Shown here piece by piece: positions 10,492 through 37,066 of a stretch of 40,090 nucleotides of DNA. How positions within the stretch are numbered: the first letter of the stretch is position 1; each line of letters opens with the position of its first letter. Below the pieces are notes generated by a model. The model did no database searches, was not told the origin of the DNA, and saw only the letters and a list, made by a program, of their open reading frames with translations. The translations under genes and the position numbers were made by a program. This stretch comes from a virus, in the IMG/VR virus record IMGVR_UViG_3300045970_000289, positions 1-40,090 of that record; one strand, given 5' to 3'.

Positions 10492-11886
10492 ATGATTCTA
10501 TCTAGCGAGAGCATTCTTGATAAGATGAGCCTTATCAAGGGTTCCATTAAAGAGTATTTGGCACCTGAAGATAAACTGCTATTACTAAACATCTTATACT
10601 TTCTGTCTATAAAGACAGGCTGTGTTCACTTTAACACAGATCAGGATTTTAAAGCTTTTACTAAGCTGCTTGAGTATTGTAAGCAAGCGAACATAGAACC
10701 AGAAAAATATGTGATCTGCTTCTTTAAGTATTGTAATAAGTATTTGACCGGTGGCCATAAAGTTAAGCTATCTTATCTCCTAAATGAGAAGGTAGTAAGT
10801 TATTGTGGTCAGAATCTAGGTACTACCCTAGTAGACTATAGCTTGTTACAAACAGTTAAGACTGATATCTTATATACAGAGAAGTCTATAAGAAGTTATG
10901 CCGCTGAACATGATATGTCTTATAATAAGAGCCTTCTCACTGCTTATAAGAGTGGTTCTCTTTCAGAGGCCTATCTCCTATACAAGTATTACATGAGTGA
11001 TGAGGCGTTTTACGGGATAGAACTAAGCAAGAATAAGAAAACATTGCTAGCTTGCCTAGAACCCTTCTTCTTATACATCGTTTCTCGTAATGGTGTCTTT
11101 CCAAAGGATCTTATTAACCAGTGGAATAACTCTAAGCTAGAGGATTGGAATTTCTGTGCTTTATTCTTTAGGGATCGGTATCTAACAAAGGAAATTGATT
11201 TCCCAAGTCTTATGAGTAATGAGGCTAGTACAGCCGGTACTTGTGTTCACAATGCTTTTGAAGAGCTTGTTACAAAATATAACAAGTCTAAGAATAAGGA
11301 TTTGGCAAAATCTTATGAGAGATTCTTACAGTCTAAGACATTTATTTACCTAGAAAAGACCTATCCTGAGCATGTTCCAGGATTCAAGGAGTTCTTCACT
11401 CTCACACTACCAAAACTACTTACACCCACAACCACGATATTAACTGAGCAGCTGATGAAGATGACATACGGTGAATATACCCTGTATGGTACAGCGGATC
11501 TTATCCTAGTAGATGGTGATACAGCTATTCTATTGGACTATAAGACATCTAAAATTGACCAGTCTTTCTGGTTGGCTGAGAATAATGCTAAGTATCGTAA
11601 GCAGTTATCGCTATACGCTGCTTTCATTAAGCACACAATCCCTGGTGTCGCAAATGTTATTGACGCGTATATTGTGTATACCCGTGGTCTAGTCCACAGA
11701 CTACCTGATTTGAATGAGAACATCTTAGACGAGACTATCTCTAGAATCTTAAAGATCAAACAATACATCAAACTCAAGGCTTTCAATGCAAACACCAAAT
11801 CATGCTTTTTATGCCGACACCCAACCTGCGAAAGCCGTGCCAAAGAAAGCATGTGGGCAAGTGATGGTACGAGAAAATCAAAGTAA
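10492..11886 (+). CDS. RecB/Cas4-like PD-(D/E)XK nuclease with probable Fe-S cluster
   Basis: I chose the ATG at 10492 because GGAG lies four bases upstream; an in-frame TTG at 10480 would add four residues. The product has 464 residues. The C-terminal half shows the RecB-family nuclease core: GTCVH with His253, Asp336 in GTADLIL, Asp349 and Lys351 in LLDYKTS, and Gln371/Tyr375 in KQLSLY. These bind metal and cut DNA in this family. Cys222 before the His motif and Cys438, Cys441 and Cys446 near the end match the four-cysteine iron-sulfur layout of AddB and Cas4 nucleases, with a C-x2-C-x4-C tail rather than the usual C-x2-C-x5-C. Residues 1-200 are helical and unrecognised. No helicase partner is visible in the window. 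A role in DNA-end processing or host DNA degradation is likely. Confidence 0.88.
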   Translation: MILSSESILDKMSLIKGSIKEYLAPEDKLLLLNILYFLSIKTGCVHFNTDQDFKAFTKLLEYCKQANIEPEKYVICFFKYCNKYLTGGHKVKLSYLLNEKVVSYCGQNLGTTLVDYSLLQTVKTDILYTEKSIRSYAAEHDMSYNKSLLTAYKSGSLSEAYLLYKYYMSDEAFYGIELSKNKKTLLACLEPFFLYIVSRNGVFPKDLINQWNNSKLEDWNFCALFFRDRYLTKEIDFPSLMSNEASTAGTCVHNAFEELVTKYNKSKNKDLAKSYERFLQSKTFIYLEKTYPEHVPGFKEFFTLTLPKLLTPTTTILTEQLMKMTYGEYTLYGTADLILVDGDTAILLDYKTSKIDQSFWLAENNAKYRKQLSLYAAFIKHTIPGVANVIDAYIVYTRGLVHRLPDLNENILDETISRILKIKQYIKLKAFNANTKSCFLCRHPTCESRAKESMWASDGTRKSK

Positions 11887-11894
11887 TTAACTTT
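11885..11894 (+). promoter_or_regulatory. AATTAANTWT motif (candidate promoter)
   Basis: The sequence AATTAACTTT overlaps the stop codon of the nuclease gene and lies about 25 bases before the next ATG. It is one of a set of similar decamers found just before genes in this window. The promoter role is inferred from position only. Confidence 0.3.
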
Positions 11895-11918
11895 ATAGAC
11901 TATATCTAAGGCGACAAC

Positions 11919-12401
11919 ATGTCACTATACACCCCTGAATCACTAATCAGAAAAATCATTCTAGAGGCTGAAGACCTTACTTTAACTCCTTCACCAGATG
12001 CACAGGAATTTTCCGGTGGATCTACACCAGAAGAAATTGCAGCTAGAGCTACTCCTCCTGCACCAGCTGGCCCTAGTGGCGCTCCTGGGTTAGGTGGACA
12101 ATCTTTAACTCTACCTTCTGTGGCTCAGCCAACCAGTACAATCATGAAGACTGTTATTAATAAGGACATTATCTTAGCTCAGTTAGCTGAACTTAAGAGC
12201 GTAATCACAGGTGCTGAAAAGCAGTTTGATGGTGATGACCTTACTCCAGAAGACGCTAATATCTATATTAGCAGATTACTCAGCACTTTAGTTTTCCATG
12301 CCGAAACTTTAAACAAGTTTTTAGAAGGTCAGGGATCACCTGAACAGCCTGAAGCCGCTGGTGCCGAGCCATTAGTACAACCAGAGATCCCACAGGTATA
12401 A
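11919..12401 (+). CDS. Small phage protein with N-terminal (I)LEA motif (160 aa)
   Basis: The N-terminus is a short amphipathic segment ending in Ile14-Leu-Glu16-Ala17, which resembles the T4 prohead-protease site (L/I)-x-E and recurs in other proteins here. Residues about 40-70 are rich in Pro, Gly and Ala and probably disordered. Residues 75-140 look like a helical hairpin, and the tail is acidic. AAGG lies about 8 bases before the ATG. The function is unknown. The N-terminal motif suggests an internal head or scaffold-associated protein, but that is inference. Confidence 0.85.
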   Translation: MSLYTPESLIRKIILEAEDLTLTPSPDAQEFSGGSTPEEIAARATPPAPAGPSGAPGLGGQSLTLPSVAQPTSTIMKTVINKDIILAQLAELKSVITGAEKQFDGDDLTPEDANIYISRLLSTLVFHAETLNKFLEGQGSPEQPEAAGAEPLVQPEIPQV

Positions 12402-12404
12402 ACA

Positions 12405-12728
12405 ATGGCATCAATTACGACAAAGTTTTCTGTGAGAGACGTTTGCTATACCTTTGATAGTAAAGCTGGCGTGATCTATAGAAGCATTGTAAATGAAATC
12501 AATATTGTAAGTAAAAGCAGCGGTGATTCAGAGGTAATGTATTCATTATCCAACACTACTCCAGACCCAGGCGCTGCTAATTCCGGTAGTGCTGCTTCTA
12601 TGTTGAGTAGAGTTACTGCTGAACGAGAATATGAACAAAATCTCCATACCGAGGTAGAAGTCAAAGACTTGGCTAACACTTGGTTAATCAATAAATCTCT
12701 AAGTATCTTCCAAAATGCTGGACTATAA
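12405..12728 (+). CDS. Small beta-rich protein, first of a tandem paralogous pair (107 aa)
   Basis: The gene starts three bases after the previous stop and ends directly against the next ATG. The beginning, TTKFSVRDVCYTF, matches the next gene (TTKFSVGDVCYAV), and both continue with an Ile/Val-rich strand pattern. The two therefore look like a tandem duplication. The shape suggests a small SH3- or tudor-like barrel of the kind common in phages. The middle has a Gly/Ser/Ala-rich loop that the second copy lacks. The function is unknown. Confidence 0.82.
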   Translation: MASITTKFSVRDVCYTFDSKAGVIYRSIVNEINIVSKSSGDSEVMYSLSNTTPDPGAANSGSAASMLSRVTAEREYEQNLHTEVEVKDLANTWLINKSLSIFQNAGL

Positions 12729-13771: not shown

Positions 13772-13797
13772 TAACGATATATCCAATGGAGACAACC

Positions 13798-14043
13798 ATG
13801 GAACAGTTTAAGACAACTATTGAATTCAGTGACGATGAACTTAAGGTACTAAACGATGTACTGCGAGCTACTAAGGTCACTTTCAGTAGTGAAGAAGCAT
13901 TACTAATCAAGCTAGGTAGGGCATCTAACCCTATTATGGATCTAACTCATAAATGCGCTCTTATTTATGAGCAACGGGCTGCAACTATTATGGAAGAGCA
14001 AAAGGCTCAGGCCGTTAAACCACCTGAATTAACAGAGAATTAA
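13798..14043 (+). CDS. Small unknown protein (81 aa)
   Basis: An in-frame ATG exists at 13786, but it lies over the ribosome binding site GGAG (13788-13791), which is six bases before the ATG at 13798. I therefore take 13798 as the start. The product is a small, mostly helical, charged protein. It has a beta-strand-like opening (FKTTIEFSDDELKVL) similar to small phage proteins of unknown role. No domain is recognised. Confidence 0.82.
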   Translation: MEQFKTTIEFSDDELKVLNDVLRATKVTFSSEEALLIKLGRASNPIMDLTHKCALIYEQRAATIMEEQKAQAVKPPELTEN

Positions 14044-14070
14044 ATACACTAATACTTTAAAGGAGTATAC

Positions 14071-14269: not shown

Positions 14270-14376
14270 GTCTAAAAAGACCTTTCGCTTCCCGCCCCGA
14301 CTGACCGATAAATATTCACGGCGCGGTGCCGAGTGAATTAAATGTATAAACCACCCCAGGCGAAAAGTTCAATTTT
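14270..14376 (+). other. Leader of the reductase unit with a second hairpin
   Basis: This gap contains a locally G+C-rich stretch (14286-14335) and an inverted repeat, ATTCACGGC (14314-14322) against GCC (14328-14330) plus GTGAAT (14333-14338), a nine-pair stem with a two-base bulge. It lacks a U-tract, so it is not a typical terminator. GATAAATA (14307-14314) resembles the T4 late promoter TATAAATA, and AATTAAATGT (14336-14345) is one base off the decamer motif seen elsewhere. The promoter of the reductase unit probably lies here. I could not match it to a cobalamin riboswitch. Confidence 0.4.
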
Positions 14377-14868
14377 ATGTTAAATACCATCAGACCGGAA
14401 TTAACAAAAGAACCTTTGCGGGTCATCTGTCAGAAGAACGAATTTTTCGCTATCGGCGCTCTAAGAGAGCTTTTAGATACTGAACTATGTTTGTTTGCTC
14501 CTACAAGGTCAAATAAGTTCTCTCATATGATTCTAAAGTTTCCATTAGATATGAGCGAAGAGTTCTTAGAGTGCGTCCTGGATTGCGTAGAGACTCTAAC
14601 CAAAGAACCTGCGTCACTAACTGTTACAGATGACTTAGAAAAAGATGGTTATATCTTAGCTGTTAGAGATTCAGACTTATTAGCTAAGTTAGTGATGCTA
14701 AAATTAGATCAGCCAAGGGGTTTGAATCCTTGGTGTTTAGCTGGTGTAATGTTCGTTTCTTTTAACAGATTTAAGAAACAAGATACCAACATCCATATAA
14801 TAAAAAATGACCTATTTGGGTCTAAGACATTAAACGCACTACATAGATTTAACTACTTACTACTATAA
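14377..14868 (+). CDS. Unknown protein encoded ahead of ribonucleotide reductase (163 aa)
   Basis: This is the first gene after the terminator and leader. Its stop is followed nine bases later by the reductase ATG, so the two are probably one operon. The protein is small, soluble and alpha/beta, with several Cys residues but no clear metal-binding spacing. The ribosome binding site is weak (GCGAAAAG, some distance upstream). No family is recognised. Position suggests a function tied to nucleotide metabolism, which is only guilt by association. Confidence 0.82.
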   Translation: MLNTIRPELTKEPLRVICQKNEFFAIGALRELLDTELCLFAPTRSNKFSHMILKFPLDMSEEFLECVLDCVETLTKEPASLTVTDDLEKDGYILAVRDSDLLAKLVMLKLDQPRGLNPWCLAGVMFVSFNRFKKQDTNIHIIKNDLFGSKTLNALHRFNYLLL

Positions 14869-14877: not shown

Positions 14878-17505
14878 ATGGAACTCACTGAACACGCCCT
14901 AAACTTTTTGAACGCCCTTGGTGTTATTACTAGCACTGGTGTTGGTTATATCAATAATGCCTCAGATGCTCAACTATCCGATGCTATCGCATATTCTAAG
15001 TGCTATGATTGGTATGTCGAAGATCAAAAAGTGTTACCTGAGAATGCTGCACTAGCAGCTAAGGTATGGGTTCAGAAGTATGCCCTACACAATAGCGATG
15101 GGATTTGCCTTGAAGAAACCCCAGCTAATATGTGGGATCGTTTGGCTGAAGTATTAGCCGAAGTTGAAATGCAAACCTCTAAGACTGGTTCTAAGACTCA
15201 GGAAGAGTGGAAGAATTACTTTAGAGAAGGATTACAAGACTATGCCTATTCACCACAGGGTTCTGGCCTCTACTCTTTGGGTAATCCTTATGTTAAGGCA
15301 TCTAGCAGTAACTGTTTCGTACTACCTCCACCGGAGGATAGTCTAGAAGGCATCTTCGAAACTGCTAAGAATTCAGCTAAAATCTATGCTGCCCGTGGTG
15401 GTGTAGGATTTGCTATTTCTAGTCTCCGTCCTAAGAAGGCTAAGACAGCTAATGCTGCTAAGAGTTCTACCGGTGCTGTAAGCTTCATGGACTTCTACTC
15501 CTATATTACTGGCATGATTGGTCAGGAAGGTCGTAGAGGAGCAGAGATGTTGTCTTTTGATGTCAGTCATCCTGACGTTATTGATTTCATTACTGAGAAG
15601 AAAGATGTAAAAATTAAACCTTTTTTCAATGAATTAGAAAAAGTTGGGATTGATATTAACGATTACCGTTATTCTGCCATTGCTGATAGGCTCAAATCTA
15701 CCTCTCACGCAAACGTTTCCGTGATGATTAACGACAAATTCATGGATTGTGTGAAGAATGACAAAGATTATGAATTAAGATTTGAGTTCAAAAATAATTT
15801 GTATCCTCCTATCACTAAGGTAGTAAAGGCTACAGACATTTGGAACGAGTTAATGAAGTCAGCTTGGGAGTCTGCCGAACCTGGGATTCTCAATTGGGAT
15901 CACATTCTACGCGAATGTCCTGCTGATCAATATGCCAAAGAAACAGAGTATGAGTGGAATGATCCTGCTACCAATGGAGGATTAAAATTATCCAAGTATT
16001 CATTCAGGACGGTAGGTGTAAATCCATGTGCAGAGGAAACTTTAAGTGCTTACGATAGTTGCAATCTTGGTATTTTCAATCTACCTCTATTCGTTATTCG
16101 GCGCTATTCAAACACTGCTGAGTTTGATTGGGATAAATATCGAAGAATAATCGAACTTGGTGTTCGCGCACAGGACAACATCAAGGAATGGGATCTTCCC
16201 AGGTTGCCACTAGAAGGTAACCGTATGGCTGGTGTTCTTGGCCGTAGAATCTCTGTTGGTAATACAGGACTAGCTGATTGTCTAGCCGCTCTAGGACTTC
16301 GTTATGATTCTGACGAAGGTATTGAGATGGCAGAGAGAATTTTTGAGTTCATGGCTAATACAGCATACAAAACTTCTGCTATCCTTGCTAATGAGAAGGG
16401 TGCTTTCCCAGCGTTTGATTTAGAGAAGACGCTAATGAGTCCCTTTATTCAAAGATTAAATCCTGATGTTATTGAACTTATCAAGCACTGTGGCCTCAGA
16501 AACATTGGCTTGCTAACACAGGCTCCTGCTGGATCAATGAGCATCTTATTCCGCAACTGCTCTTCTGGTATCGAACCTGTTTATATGTTAGAATATACTC
16601 GCAATGTTAAGAAGCCCGGCACTAAGGACTTTGAACAACATACTATCAGGCATCAGGCAGTCGAAGATTGCTTCCAGGCTGGTGGTGATCCTGCTGTATT
16701 CGTTCCAGCAGCTAGTATTGACTGGTCAAAACGCATTAAGCTTCAGTCTAGAATTCAGAAGCACATTGATCATAGTATCTCCTCAACTATTAATTTACCA
16801 AATAGTGTTACGGTAGAGGAAGTTAGTAAGATTTACATGGAGGCATATGATGCTGGTCTTAAAGGTATTACTGTTTATAGGGACGGTTGCAGGACTGGTG
16901 TTCTGGTATCGTCAGAGAAAAAGGTGGCTTCTTATAGAGCTGGACAAGTAGTAGAACGACCTAAGACTACTGAGGTTGATATTCACAAGACTAAGTACAA
17001 AGAAAAGAACTACATGATTCTTGTAGGTAAGGTTGAGAATGGTCACCCAATTGAAATCTTCGGTGGGCTTGAGGATGGTCTAAGCCTTCCTACTAGTTAT
17101 AAGTCTGCTACTCTTACCAAGAAGTCTAGAGGACACTATAGTCTAACTATTCAGCTTTCTGACGACGAAGAGGATGTCATGAAGGTCAACAATATCGGCA
17201 ACAGATTCCCTGCTCAAGATATTATGACTCTAACCAGAATGATTAGCCTATCTCTGAGGAACGGAATCTCTGTCAGCGATATCGTAGAGCAGCTTAACAA
17301 GGCCACTACGGCCATGTATGACGCTCCAGCAGTGTTCGCCAGGGTGCTCAAACAATATATCTCAGATGAGGACCTTATTAGTAAGGAGAAGGCAAAAGGT
17401 AAGCTTTGTCCTGAATGTCAAGAACCTCTAGAATATAAGAGAGAATCTGGATGCTTAGTAGAGCTATGTACTTCTTGTGACTACTCTAATAGCAAGTGCG
17501 GATAA
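14878..17505 (+). CDS. nrdJ: Adenosylcobalamin-dependent (class II) ribonucleotide reductase
   Basis: It reduces ribonucleotides to deoxyribonucleotides for phage DNA synthesis. The 875-residue protein has the family's catalytic set: Asn382, Cys384 and Glu386 in NPCAEE (the radical cysteine site), and Cys146 (SSNCF) with Cys395 (DSCNLG) as the redox pair. The 11-residue spacing from Cys384 to Cys395 matches the Lactobacillus leichmannii enzyme. The PAGSMS and SSGIEP segments of the barrel are also present. The C-terminus holds a zinc-ribbon-like cluster (Cys844, 847, 864, 867, with Cys859) and a final Cys874, typical of NrdJ and used to re-reduce the active site. I see no ATP-cone at the N-terminus and no small radical subunit nearby. 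Together with the C-terminal cysteines, this favours class II over class I. AAGGA lies six bases before the ATG. The enzyme needs host-supplied cobalamin. Confidence 0.93.
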   Translation: MELTEHALNFLNALGVITSTGVGYINNASDAQLSDAIAYSKCYDWYVEDQKVLPENAALAAKVWVQKYALHNSDGICLEETPANMWDRLAEVLAEVEMQTSKTGSKTQEEWKNYFREGLQDYAYSPQGSGLYSLGNPYVKASSSNCFVLPPPEDSLEGIFETAKNSAKIYAARGGVGFAISSLRPKKAKTANAAKSSTGAVSFMDFYSYITGMIGQEGRRGAEMLSFDVSHPDVIDFITEKKDVKIKPFFNELEKVGIDINDYRYSAIADRLKSTSHANVSVMINDKFMDCVKNDKDYELRFEFKNNLYPPITKVVKATDIWNELMKSAWESAEPGILNWDHILRECPADQYAKETEYEWNDPATNGGLKLSKYSFRTVGVNPCAEETLSAYDSCNLGIFNLPLFVIRRYSNTAEFDWDKYRRIIELGVRAQDNIKEWDLPRLPLEGNRMAGVLGRRISVGNTGLADCLAALGLRYDSDEGIEMAERIFEFMANTAYKTSAILANEKGAFPAFDLEKTLMSPFIQRLNPDVIELIKHCGLRNIGLLTQAPAGSMSILFRNCSSGIEPVYMLEYTRNVKKPGTKDFEQHTIRHQAVEDCFQAGGDPAVFVPAASIDWSKRIKLQSRIQKHIDHSISSTINLPNSVTVEEVSKIYMEAYDAGLKGITVYRDGCRTGVLVSSEKKVASYRAGQVVERPKTTEVDIHKTKYKEKNYMILVGKVENGHPIEIFGGLEDGLSLPTSYKSATLTKKSRGHYSLTIQLSDDEEDVMKVNNIGNRFPAQDIMTLTRMISLSLRNGISVSDIVEQLNKATTAMYDAPAVFARVLKQYISDEDLISKEKAKGKLCPECQEPLEYKRESGCLVELCTSCDYSNSKCG

Positions 17506-20707: not shown

Positions 20708-20718
20708 TATATTTAATT
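20708..20718 (-). promoter_or_regulatory. AATTAANTWT motif (candidate promoter)
   Basis: On the minus strand this reads AATTAAATATA. It ends 15 bases before the start codon of the 270-residue gene, leaving room for the ribosome binding site. The spacing suits a -10-like element. The role is inferred from its recurrence. Confidence 0.4.
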
Positions 20719-27304: not shown

Positions 27305-27701
27305 TAACGATAACCTTAGGCGTTTCTGAAACTACCTTATCTTGAACCAAAGACCAAATCTGAGAATCATCAATATCTTCACAGAACTCTTGTAGGGTTG
27401 AGAAGATAGTATCAAGAAGCGCCTTTGCTGTATTGTCTATATCCTTCTTGCGGATCGTTTTACCGTCTTTGAGGAACCAAGAACTTAGGCCAACTTGTAC
27501 AAATACTTGTAGAGGTTTGCCAGCCAAAGCCGATATATCCCCTGTAAGGTTGTCTTTCATCACTTTATCACGAATAATGGTGCCAACTGCCGCTTTAAAC
27601 TTCTTTCCCTCAGTACTTGTAAATCTACGAGCCTGACCTGGAATATTTACATAAAGCTTATTTACACTAATCGGTTCAATATCAATTTCAAATTCTAACA
27701 T
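27282..27701 (-). CDS. rusA: RusA-like Holliday junction resolvase (139 aa)
   Basis: RusA-type enzymes cut four-way DNA junctions using clustered Asp residues. Here KKDIDNTAKALLDTIF gives Asp87, Asp89, Asn90 and Asp97, and DIDDSQIWSL gives Asp111/112, followed by DK (121-122), in the family order. The N-terminal SVNKLY and the FTSTEGKKF segment also fit. The length is typical. It would process branched intermediates before packaging, a task done by gp49 in T4. Its start codon lies only eight bases from the divergent dUTPase ATG. No ribosome binding site is visible upstream. Confidence 0.87.
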   Translation of the reverse strand: MLEFEIDIEPISVNKLYVNIPGQARRFTSTEGKKFKAAVGTIIRDKVMKDNLTGDISALAGKPLQVFVQVGLSSWFLKDGKTIRKKDIDNTAKALLDTIFSTLQEFCEDIDDSQIWSLVQDKVVSETPKVIVIIQEHQE

Positions 27702-27709: not shown

Positions 27710-28249
27710 ATGTCTTCATTCTATACTTTTATTAATCAACTACATAAGTTAATTACCGAGCCTGGGCATAACCCAAACATCTTTATTGATCCACCGATAA
27801 ATCTTAAGTGTGTCAAATTAGACCATAAAGCAACGCTACCAACTAAAGCTCATATGGGTTTATTTGAAGATGCTGCTTTTGACTTATATGCTACAGAAGA
27901 CCTTCTCTTCCAATACGGACAAAGAAAAATGGTAGGAACTAAGCTTAGTTTTATTATACCGGATGGTTATTGGTTAAAGTTAAGAGAACGTTCAGGCATG
28001 GCTAGTAAAGGTATTCACCTCCTGGGAGGTGTTATTGATTCTGGTTATACAGGAGAAGTAAAAGTTATTCTCTGGAGCTGTTCACCAGACCCAGTGTCTA
28101 TTACGATGGATAAAGCCATCTGTCAGTTTACAGTAGAACGATTAAATAAAGCTACTATCGAAGAATTAAGCTTTGCCTCTTTTACGACAGAAGCAAACGA
28201 GAGGCAGCGAGGGTGTAAAGGATTTGGGAGTTCAGATGTTAAAAGTTAA
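27710..28249 (+). CDS. dut: Trimeric-type dUTPase
   Basis: It hydrolyses dUTP to dUMP and pyrophosphate, keeping uracil out of DNA and supplying dTMP precursor. All five motifs are visible: AAFDLYA (55-61), RERSGMA (92-98), GVIDSGYTGEV (107-117, with Asp110 and Tyr113), a weaker motif IV near 134-144, and RGCKGFGSS (167-175) with the ring-stacking Phe172. The first 30 residues are an extension before the usual start of the fold. The gene overlaps the following one by 14 bases. GGGG lies just before the ATG. Confidence 0.93.
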   Translation: MSSFYTFINQLHKLITEPGHNPNIFIDPPINLKCVKLDHKATLPTKAHMGLFEDAAFDLYATEDLLFQYGQRKMVGTKLSFIIPDGYWLKLRERSGMASKGIHLLGGVIDSGYTGEVKVILWSCSPDPVSITMDKAICQFTVERLNKATIEELSFASFTTEANERQRGCKGFGSSDVKS

Positions 28250-28775
28250 AGATTTACCTAAAATTGACTTAGAGAGTGTTAGTTTAGAAGTAACTAAGTT
28301 ATTAGAAGAGAACAAAGTACAATTCAAATCTATAGAAGAAGCTCCCCGGATTATTAAGAAGCTATCCATATTTTGTAATGATCTTTATATATCTTATAAA
28401 GATACTGTATATGTGCCGGTAGGACATGTCGATGTAGCGCAATCTAAAGATGCTAAAGATAGAGTTATAGCTACGAGTAAGTTAATACCGTGGGTATATG
28501 CAGTTAAAAATGGTAGTGTTTCTACAATACCTAACTTACTAAATACACTTTTTAGTACACAAGTTAGAAGTTATTACTTCCTCTATGAGTATGCCTTACT
28601 AAAGTCACATGACCTTCCAGAGATTCCAGAGCTTGTGGCTACTGGGTTTATCTCAACAAGACGCAACTTCCTAGGATTTAGGAAGAATTCAGATAAAGTT
28701 CTACTGGTTTTAAAAGCCATGCTAGCTAGTAAAATACTAGTTAAGACTTCGCCCGAATTGACCCAAACTTCATAG
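28236..28775 (+). CDS. Unknown protein after dUTPase (179 aa)
   Basis: I choose the ATG at 28236, because GGGAG lies five bases upstream; the longer frame from 28173 would lie inside dut. It overlaps dut by 14 bases and so is co-translated with it. Its 3' end overlaps the convergent 1083-residue gene by 35 bases. The protein is alpha/beta and soluble-looking, with no recognised motif. Confidence 0.8.
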   Translation: MLKVKDLPKIDLESVSLEVTKLLEENKVQFKSIEEAPRIIKKLSIFCNDLYISYKDTVYVPVGHVDVAQSKDAKDRVIATSKLIPWVYAVKNGSVSTIPNLLNTLFSTQVRSYYFLYEYALLKSHDLPEIPELVATGFISTRRNFLGFRKNSDKVLLVLKAMLASKILVKTSPELTQTS

Positions 28776-31700
28776 TTTTTACTTTATCTCTAAGCTCTCT
28801 AGCTGAGTCTAATACTGTATTAGACTCTTTGAAGGTATCGTTTAGTTCGGATAAAGCTTCATTTTCGATTTCAGTAACATCAAAACCCTCTGGCACAGTC
28901 AGAGACTTAGCCGCAGCTGTAGTTAGAATGTCAACCATATCATCACCAGCCTCATGCTTTTCGTGGTGAGGCAATATAGCAAGTGCTATTTTAGCTTGAT
29001 CAGCTTCTATCTTGTCAATTATGCGTCTGAAAGTCTCTAGTACGCGATTGATTTTGTCGAATAGTTCGCTTACAGCTATTAATGTTCTAGCTCTTAAATG
29101 GATATTCATTATAGCAAAAGGTACTAGTTTAGGACTAACAGTATATCTAGGAGCATCTGCTTCTATTAGAAGATCAATGTAGGATTTTATTCTACCATCA
29201 TCTATAGGAGTTGTAGAGGTACGAACTAGGTTATTAACCTTTAATGTTTCAGCTGCGAAGATAGCAAACACACCTGGGTTTTTCAAAACACCAATAGGTT
29301 TGTTGTATAACGCAGGAACCATAGCACCATATTGTTTACCACTAGCGTTTGGTTTTTTAGGAGAAATCAAAAAGGCTAGTGGTAAGCTTTGTGTCTTCTT
29401 ATCTGGATAAGAGATAGTTAAAGGTGATCTAAAAGATAACATACCCATTCTATCTGCTGGGATAACAGAACATACTTTATCTAACGCAGCTTCCAAATCC
29501 TCGGGAGTTTTAGCCGCTAGAAAAGTAGGCTCTTGTCTTCTAAGTTCTTCTAATATACTAGTTGCAACCTTACCATATGAAACAGCATCTGGGAAAATAA
29601 CAAGGTGTTTTCTACCATATACTCTGGTTATATCTTTACCCTTATCGTCATAAATTGGATACATGACGAACTGTTTTTCCCAAGCATCACTTGGTCTATC
29701 TATGCTTAAAGGAGTGAGGTGTAAAAATCCCCAGTCTTTTAATGGTATATTACTAGGTGGCTTAAGCATGTCAGAGACTACACTATAATAGTCTTCAAAC
29801 TTCTGTTTTAGGTCTGCTTTCTGTTTCTCTTCTGGAGAATTTAAGTCAACTTTTCTATTCTTCAAGGCTACCTGATCTCTTCTAGCATCTGGCACATCAA
29901 CTACAGAGGTTGCATTAGGATCAACTGGAGTTATACCAAAATACTCAGACATTTCGCTAGTTGGTAGTAAATATTCACGTTTAATAGTTGAACCAAGACC
30001 AGGAGATATAGATCTAAATCTAGGTGCATGATCACATAACTCTGCATATAACTCATTCAAGTAGTTAGCCGCTTCATTGTTTGTCTCTTCTGAAATACCA
30101 GAAGGGCTGAAGTTAAAGGCTTTTAAGCCGTCTTCAAAAGTTTTTGGTAAACCCTTCATCTTCTCTGTTATGTCTCTTTCACTGAAAAGATCACGACCTC
30201 TTAAAAAACTTAGGATAGCTCCTAACTCTCTAACAAGATATTCAGAGTCTTTTGTAATATCACCAGCAAAACTTTGATATTCTCCTAGTAAATTAGCTGG
30301 AGTAATGGATCCAGTGGAGTCTACTTTGTAATACTCACAGTCACCAGTAAAAGCATCTACTGGTACTTTAGAAAAAGTATCTGCTATAGTTCTAGTTAAG
30401 TTAGATGGATTCTTACCAATATTGAATACATTAGCTAGAGCGACAAGGGTATCCCAAAACTTATCATAGATTAATTTATCTAGTGTTAATTCCTGGTCAG
30501 GTGCTCCAGTAACAGCATTAACAGATCCAATACCCTCGGAATTGTATGCACCCGTTTCTGGGTTCTTCGCATCCATGGAATTGATTTGAGGTGCATTTGT
30601 GCTTGAGGCAGATGAAGTTAAGCCTGCTTGACTTAAATATGATACAGTCTTTAAAGCTCTTACAATAGCCGTACCAAAAACAGAATCCTTAGGCTCTCCA
30701 AATAACAGAGCTACTAAAAACCACACTGTAATTTCACTACAGAACTGGCCGAAAAGAATGTCTTTATCACCCACATCACCTACTAAATTAGCTTCTCCTA
30801 GAAGAGAATGAGCATATTTAGAAAGGTTCATTTCAGACAAAAGTTTAGGGTCTATTGGACCTAAAAACTTAGTTATAGTCTGTAAGGCACCCGAATTTGA
30901 GTTGGCAAACTTCTTTAATGCCGTTGTAGAAGGTGTGTATAAAGACCTGAAATAGTTTGTAAAGAAGTAGGTCTGATCTGTTTGATCTTGTCCCTTTTCT
31001 GGATCAAACCCAGACATAAAAATCTTAGTATCTTCGTGAGGAATAGCTAAACCTTCACCTGGGGCATAGTCAATTTCTTCCTCTTCGTCATCTTCTTTTT
31101 TAGTTTTTGCTTTCTTTCTATCTTGTCTAAGAAGAGCATTATATCGCTTTTCCCATTGAGCCATGTTCTCGTATTTATAATAAAGATAGTTATTGGCAAT
31201 ATTAACAGCAATAAATAAGTTGTCTAAGTCATCTTTTGTTATATCAGCTATAGAAGTTGAAGTAGCTTGAGATTTGTTAATCCATCTGGTTATAGCTCTA
31301 GCATCTCTAGAGAATGATTTTTCTAAGGTCTTTAAAGCTTTTGCATTATCTTTAGCCAGCTGTGGATTTTCAGATTCTGGATCCCATCGTTCTCGTTCTA
31401 GGTCAGTTGGTTCTTTTTCTGAAAGCTCTTGTAAAAGATCAACTATAATACCAGTAGGTTCTTTATTTATCAAGCTTCTTCTAAAGTCAGTGTAGAAAAT
31501 TAAAATCTCGTCTAAAGCAGATTTGAAAGGACCTTTTCTATCTGGATCAAAACCTTCTTCTATAAACGTAGCAAGGTCTTTATTTAGAGACTCACTACCA
31601 GATTCTGTAGGTCTATTAAGGAAGAAGTTAATAAATCTTCTTAAGGTATCAGGTTCATTACGTGCCTTGGCCCAATCTACAACACCTTTAGTAGATTTAC

Positions 31701-31992
31701 TATCATCTTCTTCTTCATCTAAATCACTGTCAGTAGAACTAAAATCAGGTTCTTCTTCTGTTGAAAGATCTTCCTCTTCTGGTACCTCACCTTTAACCAA
31801 CATAGCTTCTCTGTCAATGATGCCAGCATCATCTGGAACAGCTTTTAAAATGTAGTCATCCTCAGAATCGTCGACTTCCTCAGGTTCAACAACAGGCTGA
31901 ATAATAGGTTTAGTTGGTTTAGGTGACTTAGGTAACTTAGATTTAGCTGCTTCAATGAGAAGAACTTCTAGATGTTGTTTTAAAGTTAGCAT
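28741..31992 (-). CDS. Large unknown protein downstream of the baseplate hub gene (1083 aa)
   Basis: The N-terminus MLTLKQHLEVLLIEAAKSK has L12-I-E14-A15, like the prohead-protease sites discussed for other proteins. Residues 20-110 are an acidic, Pro-rich, probably disordered segment. The rest appears globular, with no membrane helix and no enzyme motif that I recognise. A KKAKTKKEDDEEEE charge block lies near residues 293-306. It starts 11 bases after the hub gene stop, so it belongs to the tail/baseplate unit by position. No ribosome binding site is visible; an AATTAAATAT motif abuts the ATG. The role is unknown. Confidence 0.88.
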   Translation of the reverse strand: MLTLKQHLEVLLIEAAKSKLPKSPKPTKPIIQPVVEPEEVDDSEDDYILKAVPDDAGIIDREAMLVKGEVPEEEDLSTEEEPDFSSTDSDLDEEEDDSKSTKGVVDWAKARNEPDTLRRFINFFLNRPTESGSESLNKDLATFIEEGFDPDRKGPFKSALDEILIFYTDFRRSLINKEPTGIIVDLLQELSEKEPTDLERERWDPESENPQLAKDNAKALKTLEKSFSRDARAITRWINKSQATSTSIADITKDDLDNLFIAVNIANNYLYYKYENMAQWEKRYNALLRQDRKKAKTKKEDDEEEEIDYAPGEGLAIPHEDTKIFMSGFDPEKGQDQTDQTYFFTNYFRSLYTPSTTALKKFANSNSGALQTITKFLGPIDPKLLSEMNLSKYAHSLLGEANLVGDVGDKDILFGQFCSEITVWFLVALLFGEPKDSVFGTAIVRALKTVSYLSQAGLTSSASSTNAPQINSMDAKNPETGAYNSEGIGSVNAVTGAPDQELTLDKLIYDKFWDTLVALANVFNIGKNPSNLTRTIADTFSKVPVDAFTGDCEYYKVDSTGSITPANLLGEYQSFAGDITKDSEYLVRELGAILSFLRGRDLFSERDITEKMKGLPKTFEDGLKAFNFSPSGISEETNNEAANYLNELYAELCDHAPRFRSISPGLGSTIKREYLLPTSEMSEYFGITPVDPNATSVVDVPDARRDQVALKNRKVDLNSPEEKQKADLKQKFEDYYSVVSDMLKPPSNIPLKDWGFLHLTPLSIDRPSDAWEKQFVMYPIYDDKGKDITRVYGRKHLVIFPDAVSYGKVATSILEELRRQEPTFLAAKTPEDLEAALDKVCSVIPADRMGMLSFRSPLTISYPDKKTQSLPLAFLISPKKPNASGKQYGAMVPALYNKPIGVLKNPGVFAIFAAETLKVNNLVRTSTTPIDDGRIKSYIDLLIEADAPRYTVSPKLVPFAIMNIHLRARTLIAVSELFDKINRVLETFRRIIDKIEADQAKIALAILPHHEKHEAGDDMVDILTTAAAKSLTVPEGFDVTEIENEALSELNDTFKESNTVLDSARELRDKVKTMKFGSIRAKS

Positions 31993-32002
31993 ATATTTAA
32001 TT
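31993..32002 (-). promoter_or_regulatory. AATTAANTWT motif abutting the 1083-residue gene
   Basis: On the minus strand AATTAAATAT runs straight into ATG, the same 13-base string as at 22030-22018. This identity between two unrelated genes argues that the motif is functional. Confidence 0.35.
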
Positions 32003-32003: not shown

Positions 32004-34595
32004 CTATACCAGCTTAGGAGTCTGGGATTTAATGTATTCAATGGTTGGAACATAGGTTAGACCTTCTTGTGATAGGCCTCTAGTTACTATAGCTAGGTTT
32101 TCTACATTCTTGTATGTAATAGGCTGACCATTACCTTTAGTAGACTGTATAAGGGATCTAACTTTGGTAGGTCCTTGGTTGTAAGCTAAGATAGTTAAGT
32201 ATTTGAAGTCTATCGCACCAATAGAATCCTGAGCTACCCCAATAGATTTTAGTGCACTTCCTACATAGTTAATATTCTTAACCATAAGTTTGAAAGCCAC
32301 TTCAGCATTTTTCTTGCCATCATAATATTGTGATAGTTCTACTTCAGATAATCTATAACCTAAAACTTCCTGGAAAGCAATGGGCTTTAACTGGAATAGG
32401 CCATAAGCACTTGCAGAGTTTCTAACTTTAGGATCGCCATTACTTTCATGTAGCATAAGGGCTTTGAAGTCTGTAACATCTGGAAATACAGTAGAGGCTG
32501 TTGTATTAGGTTTAATATACTTATTATACATTTCTTTAAGGACATCATCCCAAGTAGTGAGAGTAAAGCTCTTAACTACTTTGCCAGCTGGTTTAGTGGT
32601 ATACATATCAGTAGAATCTGTTTGAACGCCAGGAGGATTAAGAGAGATTGTGGCTGGGTCTACTAAGTTCTTGTTAGAATCAATAATAAAAGAATTTCCT
32701 AAGTTAGAGGTAATAGCATTTCGCATGTCAGATTCTCTTGTCTTCTCAACTCTAGTAAAGAAATCTGGCATACTACTATCAGCAGTTGTTATATCTTTTA
32801 CATTAGTATGTATTCTAGCCCAACGCTTTGCAACAGTTTTTATTCTAGAGAATTTAGCAAAAGCATTTTCTAAAATAGCTCCAAAGACATCATAAGTTAT
32901 AGATCTATTAACTCTAAAATTAATATCTCCACAACTATATATTAAAATATTACCATCGGGATCAAAACCAATGAAGGAGCCAGACGGATGTCTAAGCATA
33001 ATAGTTTCTTTTCCTGGAGTTAAAGACATTTCTAACCCAGCTGGTTTAGCATATTCAGCTTCCTGACTCTTACTCTGTAAAGTAGCCTGCTCGATATATG
33101 GAGCCATTTGCTGAGGTGTTACAGTTACAGTAGAAAGATTTGCATTACCGTTAGTTGTTTTAAGCCAAACAGATGGATCAATCATCCCAGAAGGAATAGG
33201 AGCTTGGCGCTTGAGTGAATTTCTTCTATTGTTTAATGCTGTACCAATCTGAGCATCACCAGCATGAAAAACTTCCCAATGAAGGTGTGGACCTGTATTA
33301 CGACTAGATGTTTGAGTTATACCACAGATACCAAGAGGCGTACCTTTTTTAATTAATTTTCGTTTAGCTGGGTTACCATTAGGCTCACACATACCAGCAA
33401 TTTCTGGATAGATGAGACGCTCATGCATAAAAGAATGGGCAAACCCATCAATACCAAGACACAGTAACATCATCCCAGCATCTGAATTAACATGCCATAG
33501 TGGATATAGATCAATAGGTGCTAATAGTATGGTAGTACCATCAGCATTCGCACCAATGTCTACACCAACGTGAATTTGACCTCCACCAATGTTTGCTGGT
33601 CTTTGTACCCCGAATTTTCCGATACCCGTAGACCACCGTGGAGTGCCTGATACGGGATATCCCTTCTCAACTATACCGGAAGTAGCCTGAGCTGTTTTTG
33701 TTTGTTCTATAGCCTCACTATTAGGTGTTTGAATATTAATAGTAGTTGTTATAGAAGTGTTACTCGGATTCGGGATACTACCAGGAGGAGAAGGAGATAC
33801 TATTGGAGTAGTTGAATCTACTGTTAATAACTGCCTCTTGGAAAAAGCAGCACTGGAAGTTGTTGGAAAAGCTGGATAGAACTTTGCTAGTTGGCTCTCT
33901 TCTGTTGATGTTAATGTAGAAAGCTCGCTAAAAGCAATAGCACCTTCTAATACGATAGATCTATTTGTTGGCTCATCAGACATAAATAAGGTATTACCTG
34001 ATGCAGTTCTTATATTATAAACTTTAGAAACCAAACCTTCGTAAGCATCTAATACTTTAGGAGGTGCAGCTGCCCTATCTGTTTCTGATTCAGTTTGAGA
34101 TGGCTCAGATAATTGAATACCCGGTAGATATTCTAATGGTCTAGCTAAAGAATATCTAAACTCATTAGCGTGAATAATAGAACCTATTACAATAGGGTAA
34201 TGAGGATCATTATTCTCAAAAATGAGCATAACTTCTGTGCCAACAGAAGGGGTTGTAAATACTCCACCTGGTGTAGATACACCAGTTTTTAAATCTATCA
34301 TAGGGCCTAAATTATTACTTAAAACCTTAGCCCATGGCAAACCATCAATAGTAGTTTTAGATTTAAAATCCCCTGGAAGTTTTACACCGGGAACTAAATT
34401 AGCAGAATCTGGTTCATCTAATCCAGTCTCACCGTAAGGATTAGGCCCATGCAAAGCTGGAATCCATACCTTAACCCTACCCGCAAATAAAGGGTCAACA
34501 TTAGATACTACTAGACCCCTAGTAGTTGCTGGCTTAAGCTTACCAGCTCTTCTATTTTGGACCTCTTCAACATCAAATGAAAATGTATTACCCAT
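32004..34595 (-). CDS. 5: Baseplate hub/puncturing protein: gp5-like OB fold + M23 peptidase + lytic transglycosylase
   Basis: Residues about 22-145 form the gp5/GpV-type OB fold (LFAGRVKVWIP, VGTEVMLIFENNDPHYPIVIGS). Residues about 315-445 form an M23 zinc endopeptidase with HVGVD (His342, Asp346) and GPHLHWEV (His437, His439). Residues about 525-600 resemble the gp5 C-terminal beta-helix. Residues about 680-860 form an SLT-type lysozyme domain: Glu717 in LMLHESNGD, then SAYGLFQLKP and ILAYNQGP. The protein would pierce the outer membrane and cut both the peptides and the glycans of peptidoglycan. T4 gp5 has only a lysozyme domain, so two hydrolases in one hub is unusual. The ATG overlaps the gp53-like stop (TAATG). 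Confidence 0.92.
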   Translation of the reverse strand: MGNTFSFDVEEVQNRRAGKLKPATTRGLVVSNVDPLFAGRVKVWIPALHGPNPYGETGLDEPDSANLVPGVKLPGDFKSKTTIDGLPWAKVLSNNLGPMIDLKTGVSTPGGVFTTPSVGTEVMLIFENNDPHYPIVIGSIIHANEFRYSLARPLEYLPGIQLSEPSQTESETDRAAAPPKVLDAYEGLVSKVYNIRTASGNTLFMSDEPTNRSIVLEGAIAFSELSTLTSTEESQLAKFYPAFPTTSSAAFSKRQLLTVDSTTPIVSPSPPGSIPNPSNTSITTTINIQTPNSEAIEQTKTAQATSGIVEKGYPVSGTPRWSTGIGKFGVQRPANIGGGQIHVGVDIGANADGTTILLAPIDLYPLWHVNSDAGMMLLCLGIDGFAHSFMHERLIYPEIAGMCEPNGNPAKRKLIKKGTPLGICGITQTSSRNTGPHLHWEVFHAGDAQIGTALNNRRNSLKRQAPIPSGMIDPSVWLKTTNGNANLSTVTVTPQQMAPYIEQATLQSKSQEAEYAKPAGLEMSLTPGKETIMLRHPSGSFIGFDPDGNILIYSCGDINFRVNRSITYDVFGAILENAFAKFSRIKTVAKRWARIHTNVKDITTADSSMPDFFTRVEKTRESDMRNAITSNLGNSFIIDSNKNLVDPATISLNPPGVQTDSTDMYTTKPAGKVVKSFTLTTWDDVLKEMYNKYIKPNTTASTVFPDVTDFKALMLHESNGDPKVRNSASAYGLFQLKPIAFQEVLGYRLSEVELSQYYDGKKNAEVAFKLMVKNINYVGSALKSIGVAQDSIGAIDFKYLTILAYNQGPTKVRSLIQSTKGNGQPITYKNVENLAIVTRGLSQEGLTYVPTIEYIKSQTPKLV

Positions 34596-34936
34596 TATTT
34601 TAGCAGAGCCTTCACACTTTGAATATCGACTATATTTATGATTTCACCAGCGTTAGGTCTAGCAAAAGGATCAATAATATTGTTTGCCCACAAGATAACC
34701 CACCAAAGATCGGCTGCTTTATAAACATCAACAGCTATAAGATCAGGCCTGCCAGCAAATTTAGCCGGTACTTTATATGGATATGCAATAGTAGCTAATT
34801 GTACATAAGCTGCTGGTAGAGGGTAATATGTATTCACCTTCTTAGCAGATAAGAAGGTACCTAGTAGGGTGGTTCGCTCATTTTCTGACACGGCTGGTGT
34901 CCTAATTGATCCGTCCCAGTTCGTTGTTAGTGACAT
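34595..34936 (-). CDS. 53: Baseplate wedge protein, gp53-like (113 aa)
   Basis: The segment GRPDLIAVDVYKAADLWWVILWANNIIDPF, shown here only as key parts (RPDLIA near 64-69, LWWVILWANN near 77-86, DPF near 89-91), is the pattern of T4 gp53 and related LysM-like baseplate proteins. It is followed by a GEIINI strand. gp53 helps join wedges into the hexagonal baseplate. GAGG lies five bases before the ATG, and its stop overlaps the hub start. Location next to the hub supports the call, which is based on motif memory and not on alignment. Confidence 0.65.
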   Translation of the reverse strand: MSLTTNWDGSIRTPAVSENERTTLLGTFLSAKKVNTYYPLPAAYVQLATIAYPYKVPAKFAGRPDLIAVDVYKAADLWWVILWANNIIDPFARPNAGEIINIVDIQSVKALLK

Positions 34937-35060
34937 ATTAACCTCAAACTTAATTTACCAGAAAATACTTTGAAAATAATGCTTCGCTTTATGGTCTTAA
35001 AATACGACTATGTATATAGACCGGCGGGTTTGATAGTGTTATATAGTTAATATAGTAATA
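34937..35060 (-). promoter_or_regulatory. Intergenic region with AATTAANTWT motif before the gp53-like gene
   Basis: AATTAAGTTT reads on the minus strand at 34955-34946, nine bases before the ATG and partly adjoining the GAGG ribosome binding site. The rest of this 124-base gap is AT-rich with a small GGTCT/AGACC inverted repeat. I see no gene or clear terminator in it. Confidence 0.35.
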
Positions 35061-35540
35061 TTATAGAGCTTTTACCCTTACTTCAATTATCTGTAGCCGA
35101 CTTAAAAGTCTATCTCTACTAGAATCAACTTTTCTAGACGATTCTTCTGGGACTCTTGGTATTAAATCAGCTAACTTCATGTAGTGTTTCCAAAGAAACG
35201 CCATTTCTCTAGATATCAAAAGAATATTTATATCTTTATAGAATAGATATAAAGTTTTAGCTAGCTTTTCACAGTTAATAACTAACTCTTCTCCTAAATA
35301 ATCCTCATCTTCAAAAGCCAATATGATAAATCTAATCGCTGCTACATGTAAAAGTAACAGCTTTTTAATTTGCCCTCTTATCTTAGCAGGATCATATATA
35401 ATTTCTTTAGTATAAGTTGTTAATTCTTCTATTTCTCCAGCACTTACTAAAATACTAAACTGCTCAAGTGGTGTATCTTGAGCAGCTTTTAGCTTCTGTA
35501 TAGGACCAAGTTTTGACTCTGCATTATGGGTAATAAACAT
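35061..35540 (-). CDS. Unknown helical protein (159 aa)
   Basis: It starts 17 bases inside the end of the membrane-anchored HExxH gene, so the two are coupled. The protein looks all-helical with hydrophobic helices near residues 60-75 (LLLLHVAAIRFIILAF) that are probably internal rather than membrane-spanning because charged residues flank them closely. The C-terminus is basic. No family is recognised. Confidence 0.78.
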   Translation of the reverse strand: MFITHNAESKLGPIQKLKAAQDTPLEQFSILVSAGEIEELTTYTKEIIYDPAKIRGQIKKLLLLHVAAIRFIILAFEDEDYLGEELVINCEKLAKTLYLFYKDINILLISREMAFLWKHYMKLADLIPRVPEESSRKVDSSRDRLLSRLQIIEVRVKAL

Positions 35541-36195
35541 GTGGTTGTATAGACGGGTTCGTCTTTGCCTTCTGAGAATAGAGGAGGTCTGCCGCTTGTC
35601 TTGAGCGCGGTAGTTTAGCGAATATTGTATTGTTTGAGTTGATAAGCTCTTTTCTTATAGTATCTTCAATACCTATAGCAGAGGATTCTACTTCTCTAAC
35701 TTGGTATAAAGTATTGTTACTCTTCTGTTTATTTGCTGTTTTGATAAACTTTGTTACAGACATTAATGGGTTTGTCTTGTCATATAAGAATAGAGCATCC
35801 CATACATGCTTAAATTCATGTCCTAATAAGGGTTCTTCCATATCACCAGCGGTGATGGCATCTTCAACATCCATAGTTATAGTTGCCTCTACCTTGCCAT
35901 CAGCACTAATAGATATGCTTGTCTGACCTAAAATAGGATTAGTAAGTTTACCAGGTTTAATAGTTAAAATCAAAAGGCCATCATCTTGGCACTTCTGTAA
36001 GTCTTTTCTGATACTTGCCATTGTTGGAGAGAACTTTACACCGTTAGCCTCAGCATTAGCCATCTTCTCTTCTACAGAAACAACAGGCGCTGGCGGCTCT
36101 TGGTCCTTCTTATGCTTCATGTTATAATACACTACTCCTAAGAGTACTAATAAAATCAGTAAAAGACCACCACTAGCGTTATTATTCTTACCCAT
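35524..36195 (-). CDS. Membrane-anchored HExxH metallopeptidase-like protein (223 aa)
   Basis: The N-terminus has a single hydrophobic helix (residues about 10-24, GLLLILLVLLGVVYY) followed by Lys residues, so the protein is probably anchored with its body on one side of the membrane. GHEFKHVWD places HExxH at 126-130. The later segment REVESSAIGIED (Glu168/Glu170) may supply the third zinc ligand. The family is not recognised. It is the second HExxH protein in the window and shows no close similarity to the other. GAGGG lies four bases before the ATG, and a terminator and an AATTAAGTTT motif precede it, so it probably starts a transcription unit. Confidence 0.75.
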   Translation of the reverse strand: MGKNNNASGGLLLILLVLLGVVYYNMKHKKDQEPPAPVVSVEEKMANAEANGVKFSPTMASIRKDLQKCQDDGLLILTIKPGKLTNPILGQTSISISADGKVEATITMDVEDAITAGDMEEPLLGHEFKHVWDALFLYDKTNPLMSVTKFIKTANKQKSNNTLYQVREVESSAIGIEDTIRKELINSNNTIFAKLPRSRQAADLLYSQKAKTNPSIQPHVYYP

Positions 36196-36207
36196 AAAAC
36201 CCTCACC

Positions 36208-36217
36208 AAACTTAATT
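36208..36217 (-). promoter_or_regulatory. AATTAANTWT motif (candidate promoter)
   Basis: On the minus strand AATTAAGTTT ends 12 bases before the ATG of the membrane-anchored HExxH protein. It lies directly downstream of a strong terminator, where a new promoter would be needed. Confidence 0.42.
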
Positions 36218-36221
36218 TAGA

Positions 36222-36249
36222 TAAACAAAAGGGCTGATTTCTCAGCCCT
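36222..36249 (-). terminator. Intrinsic terminator, 8-bp stem with GAAA loop
   Basis: On the minus strand AGGGCTGA (36249-36242), GAAA loop, TCAGCCCT (36237-36230), then TTTGTTT. It ends the unit of the 211-residue structural protein. The GAAA tetraloop matches that of the terminator at 14243. Confidence 0.9.
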
Positions 36250-36275
36250 AGAGTTTATTAATTTGAAGCTAACTA

Positions 36276-36911
36276 TTAGGAAGTGAGCTTGAAGACAGAC
36301 TTGGTAACAACGACATTGCCCATTTCATTGGTAACGGTCATTGTAATGTTGCCAGTTACGCCAGAAGCGCCCTTAGCAGCAGTGAACTTCATAGCTGTGG
36401 TTCCCTGACCAGAAGTAACTGCACCAAGGACGGTGGCGTCTCCACCCCAGGCGAATGTGGCATTGCCAGTATCATTCATAGGAGTGCTGAAGGTCTGAGC
36501 AATGGATGTTGCTCCAGAAGCACCAGCAGTAGCGCCAGCGATGGCACCTGTTCCACCAGAAAGTCCGGTAGGAACAGCAGCAGTGGTAGCAAGAGCAGTA
36601 TTGAAAGCAACTACGTTCTTGGCACCAGTAGTGAAGTTCTTGAAGGAATAGAAGGTGTGGTTAGGGTACTGGGCTAGCTGGAACTGTTCTACAGCATAAC
36701 CGTTCTGGGCAGTGCCAGAAAGACTAGGAGCAGTTCTCTGAAGCATATTAATATATTCAGGGCCACCTAGGATTCCAGGGCCACCAACAGAAGCCTTAGC
36801 TGGAGTTCCATCAGGGTTTGCAGCCTCAAAAGAGAGGGCATAATCAGATGGGAAGGTCATAGTGATTGTGTTGGGTGATTCATTGATTACAGGGACTTTA
36901 ATTGTTGACAT
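36276..36911 (-). CDS. Probable virion structural protein, Gly/Ala/Thr-rich (211 aa)
   Basis: The protein is low in charge and rich in Gly, Ala, Thr and Val. It has a beta-strand pattern and a C-terminal domain (about 150-211, FAWGGDATVLGAV...MTVTNEMGNVVVTKSVFKL) that resembles an Ig-like fold. This composition is typical of phage decoration, tail or fibre proteins. The coding sequence is about 50% G+C, clearly above the neighbouring genes, which suggests either transfer or codon selection for high expression. The gene has its own candidate promoters upstream and a strong terminator downstream, both of which fit an abundant product. The exact role is unknown. Confidence 0.82.
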   Translation of the reverse strand: MSTIKVPVINESPNTITMTFPSDYALSFEAANPDGTPAKASVGGPGILGGPEYINMLQRTAPSLSGTAQNGYAVEQFQLAQYPNHTFYSFKNFTTGAKNVVAFNTALATTAAVPTGLSGGTGAIAGATAGASGATSIAQTFSTPMNDTGNATFAWGGDATVLGAVTSGQGTTAMKFTAAKGASGVTGNITMTVTNEMGNVVVTKSVFKLTS

Positions 36912-37066
36912 GGTATTAATACCTTTCGTGTATTTTGCGCTATATTTAATTACTGAGTTTTATTTGTTAAGTTACAGCGATAATTGAATCCGCTGCTTGG
37001 TGTATAAATTTAATTATATGAATTAGCTCTGTATGTTTGATGGGAAATTCCCCAGATAAAGAGATA
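36912..37066 (-). promoter_or_regulatory. 155-base upstream region with two motifs and an ATG-proximal palindrome
   Basis: Two decamers read on the minus strand: AATTAAATAT at 36951-36942 and AATTAAATTT at 37015-37006. A perfect 12-base palindrome, GGTATTAATACC (36912-36923), touches the start codon and overlaps the weak AAAGG ribosome binding site, so it could act as an operator or as a translational hairpin. A short GGGAAATTCCC-like symmetry near 37042 may be a weak terminator of the spike gene. Confidence 0.42.

Follow-up and report, generated by a model that had tools for sequence, protein, structure and literature searches.

A recurring decamer, AATTAANTWT, which precedes many genes of the viral record IMGVR_UViG_3300045970_000289 (the whole stretch of 40,090 bases, hereafter the window), is by its sequence context most likely a late promoter, the late timing being deduced from gene content only. 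The viruses that carry it are large uncultured myoviruses, which form a family not described before and accessible here through metagenomes only. In the complete proposal, which can be regarded as probable, this late promoter would be read by the host RNA polymerase with a sigma factor of the phage in which region 2 is recognizable and region 4 is not, and the RNA would begin at the 3′ edge of the decamer, with the base that follows the motif as +1, give or take a base or two. An element flush with an ATG would yield a leaderless mRNA, and a gap of at least 8 nucleotides (nt) would yield a leader with a Shine-Dalgarno sequence, which could begin at +1. The sigma gene itself would follow a different, CGATA-containing motif, so that infection would probably run as a sigma cascade.

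Fourteen exact matches to AATTAANTWT occur in the window, against 3.3 ± 1.8 expected from dinucleotide shuffles (the largest shuffle gave 8), and 11 of them lie 0-30 nt upstream of a start codon on the same strand, with gaps of 0, 0, 0, 0, 9, 12, 16, 17, 24, 24 and 30 nt. With near-start sites defined as those at most 40 nt upstream on the same strand, for which about 2.4% of the strand positions of the window qualify, this placement has p ~ 6e-16, whereas reversed and scrambled versions of the motif gave no near-start site there. Copies with one mismatch are overall near background, which indicates a strict motif, and the tolerated changes fall mostly at its last two positions, so that the strictly conserved part is the 8-bp core AATTAANT. 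No other position between -55 and -11 was strongly conserved among 34 sites, which argues for the absence of a -35 element; a generic sigma-70 promoter scan (62 matches, against 55 in shuffles) was uninformative.

The window covers part of the genome of a divergent phage with a contractile tail, and its products include gp25-like and gp53-like baseplate wedges and a gp5-like hub/lysozyme, together with SbcC/SbcD-like recombination nucleases, ribonucleotide reductase, a RusA-like resolvase and a dUTPase. When 20 kb of the window were compared with the phage sequences of GenBank, no DNA match appeared, and its relatives are metagenomic contigs. Gene starts were taken from a simple open reading frame (ORF) picker. 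The contig G001 (127 kb) is syntenic with the window at ~70% nucleotide identity; G002 and G005 belong to the same species as G001, as G009 also appears to do from its 100% identical sigma and terminase sequences, and G007, G008, G010 (213 kb), G011 (80 kb) and G012 (68 kb) are more distant. In G001, 23 of the 27 copies of the decamer have a start at most 40 nt away (p ~ 5e-33). Moreover, an unbiased count of 8-letter upstream words places AATTAA.T first in the window and G001, as well as in G010, G011, G012, G007, G008 and G009 (213, 80, 68, 49, 36 and 34 kb, respectively). The same pipeline, when applied to a 38-kb control stretch of T4, found near starts 9 of 14 copies of the T4 late element TATAAATA and 1 of 28 copies of AATTAANT.

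The nature of the genes behind these sites points to late expression. They encode gp25, gp53 and a 1083-residue virion-type protein, the portal in G011 and G012, and, in G001, the major head protein, with a site 58 nt before its start. Between the window and G001 the sites recur before orthologous genes despite the divergence of the surrounding DNA (~70% identity). In G010, 32 of the 138 genes at 0-120 kb, the structural half, have a near-start site, against 4 of the 177 genes at 120-213 kb, the early half (Fisher 3.5e-9), and this distribution supports the reading of the element as a late promoter. Terminator-like hairpins are found just upstream of 8/83 sites and of 20/1118 other genes, an enrichment that would be expected at the borders of transcription units.

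The position of the sites with respect to the start codons offers hints about where transcription begins. When the distance from the end of the decamer to the start codon was pooled for 83 sites from five non-redundant contigs, the gaps were bimodal: 0 nt in 22 sites, 1-3 nt in 6, 4-7 nt in none and at least 8 nt in the rest. At the sites with gaps of 8-19 nt, a Shine-Dalgarno-like word is present in 34 of the 35 leaders, and in 11 of them it follows the decamer immediately; the base next to the decamer is A or G in 70/83 sites. On the other hand, for 33 of the 35 ORFs that start 0-3 nt after the motif, no other start preceded by a Shine-Dalgarno sequence occurs within 40 codons. In the T4 stretch, TATAAATA lies 14-28 nt from the start codon and is never flush, and in the closest case the Shine-Dalgarno sequence starts 5 nt after the octamer, which corresponds to the T4 +1, in keeping with the position of the late element there, about -13 to -6 relative to the transcript start (PMC2988020). 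As the Shine-Dalgarno sequence sits at +1 in that T4 case, the same reading would here set the start 2 nt after the octamer. Altogether, the bimodal gaps and the Shine-Dalgarno sequences at the first base after the motif suggest that transcription initiates at the 3′ edge of the decamer, with the core at about -10 to -3, and the gaps of 0-3 nt in 28/83 sites, together with the lack of alternative starts, suggest that the flush genes are leaderless.

A preliminary description of the window had suggested that AATTAANTWT may be a sigma or late promoter specific to the phage, which resembles the T4 element without being identical to it. It had proposed to count the motif against a shuffled background and to look for its conservation in relatives, and it had expected enrichment upstream of genes and transcript starts 5-10 bases downstream. 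The first idea is now well supported, because a single element without a -35 precedes structural genes, is conserved, and belongs to a family with a divergent sigma; the upstream enrichment was found, and the motif is both kept before orthologous genes and the top upstream word in all relatives analysed. The proposed distance is probably wrong, since in four copies of the window (28/83 pooled) 0-3 nt separate the motif from the start codon, and Shine-Dalgarno sequences begin right after the motif. To reject the motif unless starts fall 5-10 bases downstream would wrongly discard a true promoter.

That distance is also what a promoter of the T4 late type would imply, with starts 5-7 nt downstream and with the flush copies either non-functional or driving shorter proteins. 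The length and AT-richness of the element, the lack of a -35 and the gene content match T4 late promoters (PMC2988020), but such a spacing seems unlikely in view of the 22 exactly flush sites and the empty class of 4-7 nt. Furthermore, the flush ORFs lack Shine-Dalgarno-led downstream starts, the flush starts are kept at orthologous genes (21223-22020 and 28741-31992), and in 11 leaders the Shine-Dalgarno sequence, at the first base after the decamer, would be lost from a T4-spaced transcript; in the T4 stretch TATAAATA never comes closer than 14 nt to a start. The resemblance between both systems is nonetheless close, since T4 late promoters, read by gp55-RNA polymerase, also consist of a single 8-bp AT-rich -10-like element without a -35 before structural genes, and gp55 is likewise a sigma with region 2 only that is barely recognizable by sequence. 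In contrast with T4, the core here is AATTAANT, the element would sit about 3 bp closer to the start, many genes are flush and apparently leaderless (none in the T4 stretch checked), the sigma has no sequence match to gp55, and the DNA polymerase of the 213-kb relative is of family A and not T4-type. A gp45-type clamp (Pfam PF02916) was found in none of four contigs, in a search that had no proper positive control, and in the distant relatives that were tested TATAAATA stood close to a start at a single site, in the locus L050. Judged by its sequence, the element is therefore not a T4 late promoter: its consensus differs, gp55 is unmatched and the predicted spacing differs.

The candidate sigma factor is a protein of 332 amino acids encoded in G001 at 51275-52273 (minus strand), with 43-92% identity across the family. 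Of the Pfam families, Sigma70_r2 alone gave matches. Ten of 11 members match it as single proteins, the best (E 7e-5, 23.0 bits) falling just short of the curated cut-off of 24, which three of four contigs passed in a genome search; the members score 20-23 bits, against 13.1 for T4 gp55. Six of seven members matched the PHROG 'RNA polymerase sigma factor', and region 4 was not found by Pfam in any member. In the case of an AlphaFold model built from 11 sequences, the 28 best fold matches in the PDB were sigma factors almost without exception, the first being E. coli sigma-32 (probability 0.99, E 6.5e-3), with HrdB and sigma-A also among them. A model from seven sequences gave no meaningful fold matches, phmmer and a profile search of the PDB returned only a weak sigma match (8x6g), and hhalign comparisons with T4 gp55 and with a FliA-like sigma were uninformative, with no alignable similarity to gp55. 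According to these data, the sigma of the family is divergent, with region 2 present and region 4 undetected. It would pair with AATTAANTWT, given that a factor of this kind fits a -10-like promoter without a -35, as argued for gp36 of phiEco32 (PMC8948821). The middle/late promoters of this phage (tAATGTAtA, read by the sigma phi32_gp36) are likewise single elements without a -35, served by a phage sigma that lacks region 4, but they differ in sequence and start 6-8 bp downstream of the element (PMC8948821), whereas the start predicted here falls 0-2 bp after the decamer. There is about an even chance that the family encodes a new class of sigma, with an element that reaches up to the last 2 bp before the start; a single box of 10 bp would then both call the polymerase and set the mRNA 5′ end, leaving roughly a third of the late genes leaderless, the rest with a Shine-Dalgarno sequence at or near +1, and some orthologues (gp25) switched between both states. 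Between the UvsX and late-sigma genes of G001, an ORF for 85 amino acids (~52715-52972, minus strand) is flush with AATTAAGTTT and has no database match; it was considered as an analogue of gp33 and set aside, as no family or phage match supports it and its product is not recognizable as gp33.

A second upstream motif, [GT][TC]CGATA, is found at 33 sites in G001, G010, G011 and G012, usually 16-30 nt before genes that include some for recombination and replication (UvsX, SbcD, exonucleases) and that of the late sigma. CGATA-type sites (CGATA, or CGATG/CGATT in closer members) precede the sigma gene in most relatives examined, among them the loci L046, L048, L050, L052, L054, L100, L102, L104 and L105. 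The early half of G010 also encodes a FliA-like sigma with regions 2 and 4 (209613-210377, equivalent to L079:10613-11377; match 2e-12), a plausible reader of CGATA, which itself is a probable middle promoter of the FliA-like type. As the late-sigma gene lies behind this different motif, a two-step sigma cascade seems likely. It could be argued that the FliA-like protein, which gives the stronger sigma match and is encoded in the 213-kb relative, is instead the cognate factor of AATTAANTWT. This is distinctly unlikely, because its region 4 should leave a -35 signal and none is seen upstream of AATTAANT, whereas CGATA resembles a FliA-type -10, with weak conservation ~19 bp upstream, and its presence before the region-2-only sigma gene fits an order that runs from the FliA-like sigma to the region-2-only sigma and then to the late genes.

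An RNA polymerase encoded by the phage, either of the AR9/phiKZ non-virion type or single-subunit, with promoters that end at +1, could also read the element, although the odds are clearly poor. In AR9 the promoter AACA-N6-T-A/G has the start as its last base, and in phiKZ the motif is TATG, both being used by non-virion RNA polymerases; as in the late promoters of these phages, the element described here is short, abuts the start and would have a purine at +1 (PMC5312081). Nevertheless, the sequences differ, AR9 leaders are 26-491 nt long, and no multisubunit polymerase was detected in the family: the beta-type domain PF00562 was not found in G001, G010, G011 or G012 (controls were positive; the contigs may be incomplete), and the predicted proteins show no convincing DxDGD motif, the one match standing in an unrelated-looking context. 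Most of the large non-structural proteins scanned have other assignments, and a search for single-subunit polymerases (PF00940) found nothing, which, with no positive control, proves nothing. A translation-level element, such as an AU-rich ribosome standby site or enhancer, would agree with the AT-richness and the closeness to start codons, yet it has a very slim chance, since the sequence is strict and not merely AU-rich, with one-mismatch copies at background, and since gaps of up to 30 nt that hold a Shine-Dalgarno sequence, upstream terminators and absence from the early half do not fit it. Chance or base composition, for all the AT-richness of the genome, has already been rejected as practically impossible by the shuffles, the reversed and scrambled motifs, the T4 control and the independent top rank in all relatives.

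For the reading as a late promoter served by the region-2-only sigma, several observations count as difficulties. SbcD and RusA carry the element and are not obviously late, and the small distant loci L100, L104 and L105 have few or no sites. The -10-type element would be separated from +1 by 2-4 nt, a smaller distance than those of T4 or phiEco32. The sigma gene is not on the window and is known only from relatives, its AlphaFold models are of low confidence (predicted local distance difference test 58-61), with no fold match reaching E 0.001, and the presence of a second, FliA-like sigma in the 213-kb relative means that the pairing could be reversed.

All the copies listed in the preliminary description are present in the window, with coordinates and strands as given there. 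Four of them are flush with an ATG: AATTAAATAT at 22021-22030 (-), before gene 21223-22020 and flush in G001 too (83104-83113); AATTAATTAT at 23209-23218 (-), before ATG 23208 of the HNH endonuclease gene 22438-23208, likely its true start; AATTAAGTTT at 26599-26608 (+), before the mobile-type endonuclease gene 26609-27304; and AATTAAATAT at 31993-32002 (-), before the gene of the putative 1083-residue virion protein (28741-31992), where the motif is also flush in the G001 orthologue and in a similar-looking gene for a 953-residue protein in G012. A homologue of the mobile-type endonuclease (G001 5168-6220, 51% identical) occupies a different genome position and has its own flush AATTAANTWT, so that this gene appears to move together with its putative leaderless promoter.

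Other copies stand at some distance from their genes. AATTAACTTT at 11885-11894 (+) lies 24 nt before gene 11919-12401, for a small acidic protein that is probably part of the virion, and AATTAACTTT is also 26 nt before the start of its G001 orthologue; AATTAAATAT at 20709-20718 (-) lies 16 nt before gene 19880-20692 and is kept before the G001 orthologue (82301-82310). The copy AATTAAGTTT at 22038-22047 (+) precedes the gp25-like baseplate wedge gene 22065-22448 with a gap of 17 nt, which is 2 in G001 and 0 in G010. On the opposite strand to the HNH site, and within the same palindrome, AATTAATTAT at 23211-23220 (+) lies 24 nt before the SbcD-like gene 23245-24291; the self-complementary AATTAATT at 23209-23220 thus holds overlapping sites on both strands for two divergent genes, an arrangement also seen in G010, G011 and G012. 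In the case of the gp53-like baseplate wedge gene 34595-34936, AATTAAGTTT at 34946-34955 (-) is 9 nt away and a GAGG Shine-Dalgarno sequence begins at the first base after it, the leader being AATTAAGTTT-GAGGTTAAT-ATG, with a matching arrangement in G001 (93868-93877). AATTAAGTTT at 36208-36217 (-) lies 12 nt before gene 35524-36195, with a terminator-like hairpin (36230-36249) directly upstream, and AATTAAATAT at 36942-36951 (-) lies 30 nt before gene 36276-36911 and is kept in G001 (95858-95867). In the same intergenic gap, a second upstream copy, AATTAAATTT at 37006-37015 (-), is 94 nt from the start at 36911, which agrees with the ~95 bases reported before; the statement that most copies are less than 40 bases from a start is also borne out by the 11 of 14 that are upstream on the same strand.

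The two remaining exact copies lie in coding regions and are probably due to chance: 33351-33360 (+), opposite the gp5-like gene and correctly described as coding, and 21715-21724 (-), the only copy that had been missed. The two sites reported as one base off are real and keep the core AATTAANT, namely the core-only AATTAAATAC at 14038-14047 (+), 23 nt before a small ORF (ATG 14071) with AAGGAG between them, and the variant AATTAAATGT at 14336-14345 (+), 31 nt before gene 14377-14868; this variant is also flush with virion-type genes in G001 and G012. A further core-only site, AATTAACTTA at 27745-27754 (-), lies 43 nt before the RusA-like gene 27282-27701 and within the divergent dUTPase gene; the G001 orthologue has AATTAAGTAT 34 nt upstream.

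Some additional observations concern the relatives. The large subunit of ribonucleotide reductase (window 14878-17505) is 59% identical to that of G003, an otherwise unrelated 221-kb contig of much higher guanine-plus-cytosine (GC) content, which suggests horizontal exchange. G003 and G004 (221 and 48 kb, GC 0.46-0.47) had been considered as relatives through NrdA and were dropped, since they share only NrdA and scattered other genes; each holds one copy of the motif, and the upstream signals of G003 are ribosome-binding sites and GGTATAAT. The DNA polymerase of G010, of family A, is apparently split into two ORFs (193155-195023 and 202384-203565) 7 kb apart, in a genome that also has T4-like UvsX, UvsW and SbcCD. 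The locus L105 (JAJYBA010000010.1), with a 73%-identical late sigma, is binned in a metagenome-assembled genome labelled Bacillota, but it is possibly a stray phage contig, and the label is only a weak hint about the host.

No phage description of an AATTAA promoter was found in a literature search. Alongside the single-element late promoters of T4 and phiEco32, the element would represent a third type, and it offers a likely late-gene switch, together with a candidate protein to read it, for a family of large myoviruses. Its unusually short distance to the predicted start would test how near +1 a -10-type element can sit, and leaderless translation in phages may be readily studied with the flush and led genes, which form a natural series and some of whose orthologues have switched from one state to the other. 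In any case, such a rigid motif could help to place start codons and to recognize late genes when related contigs are annotated.

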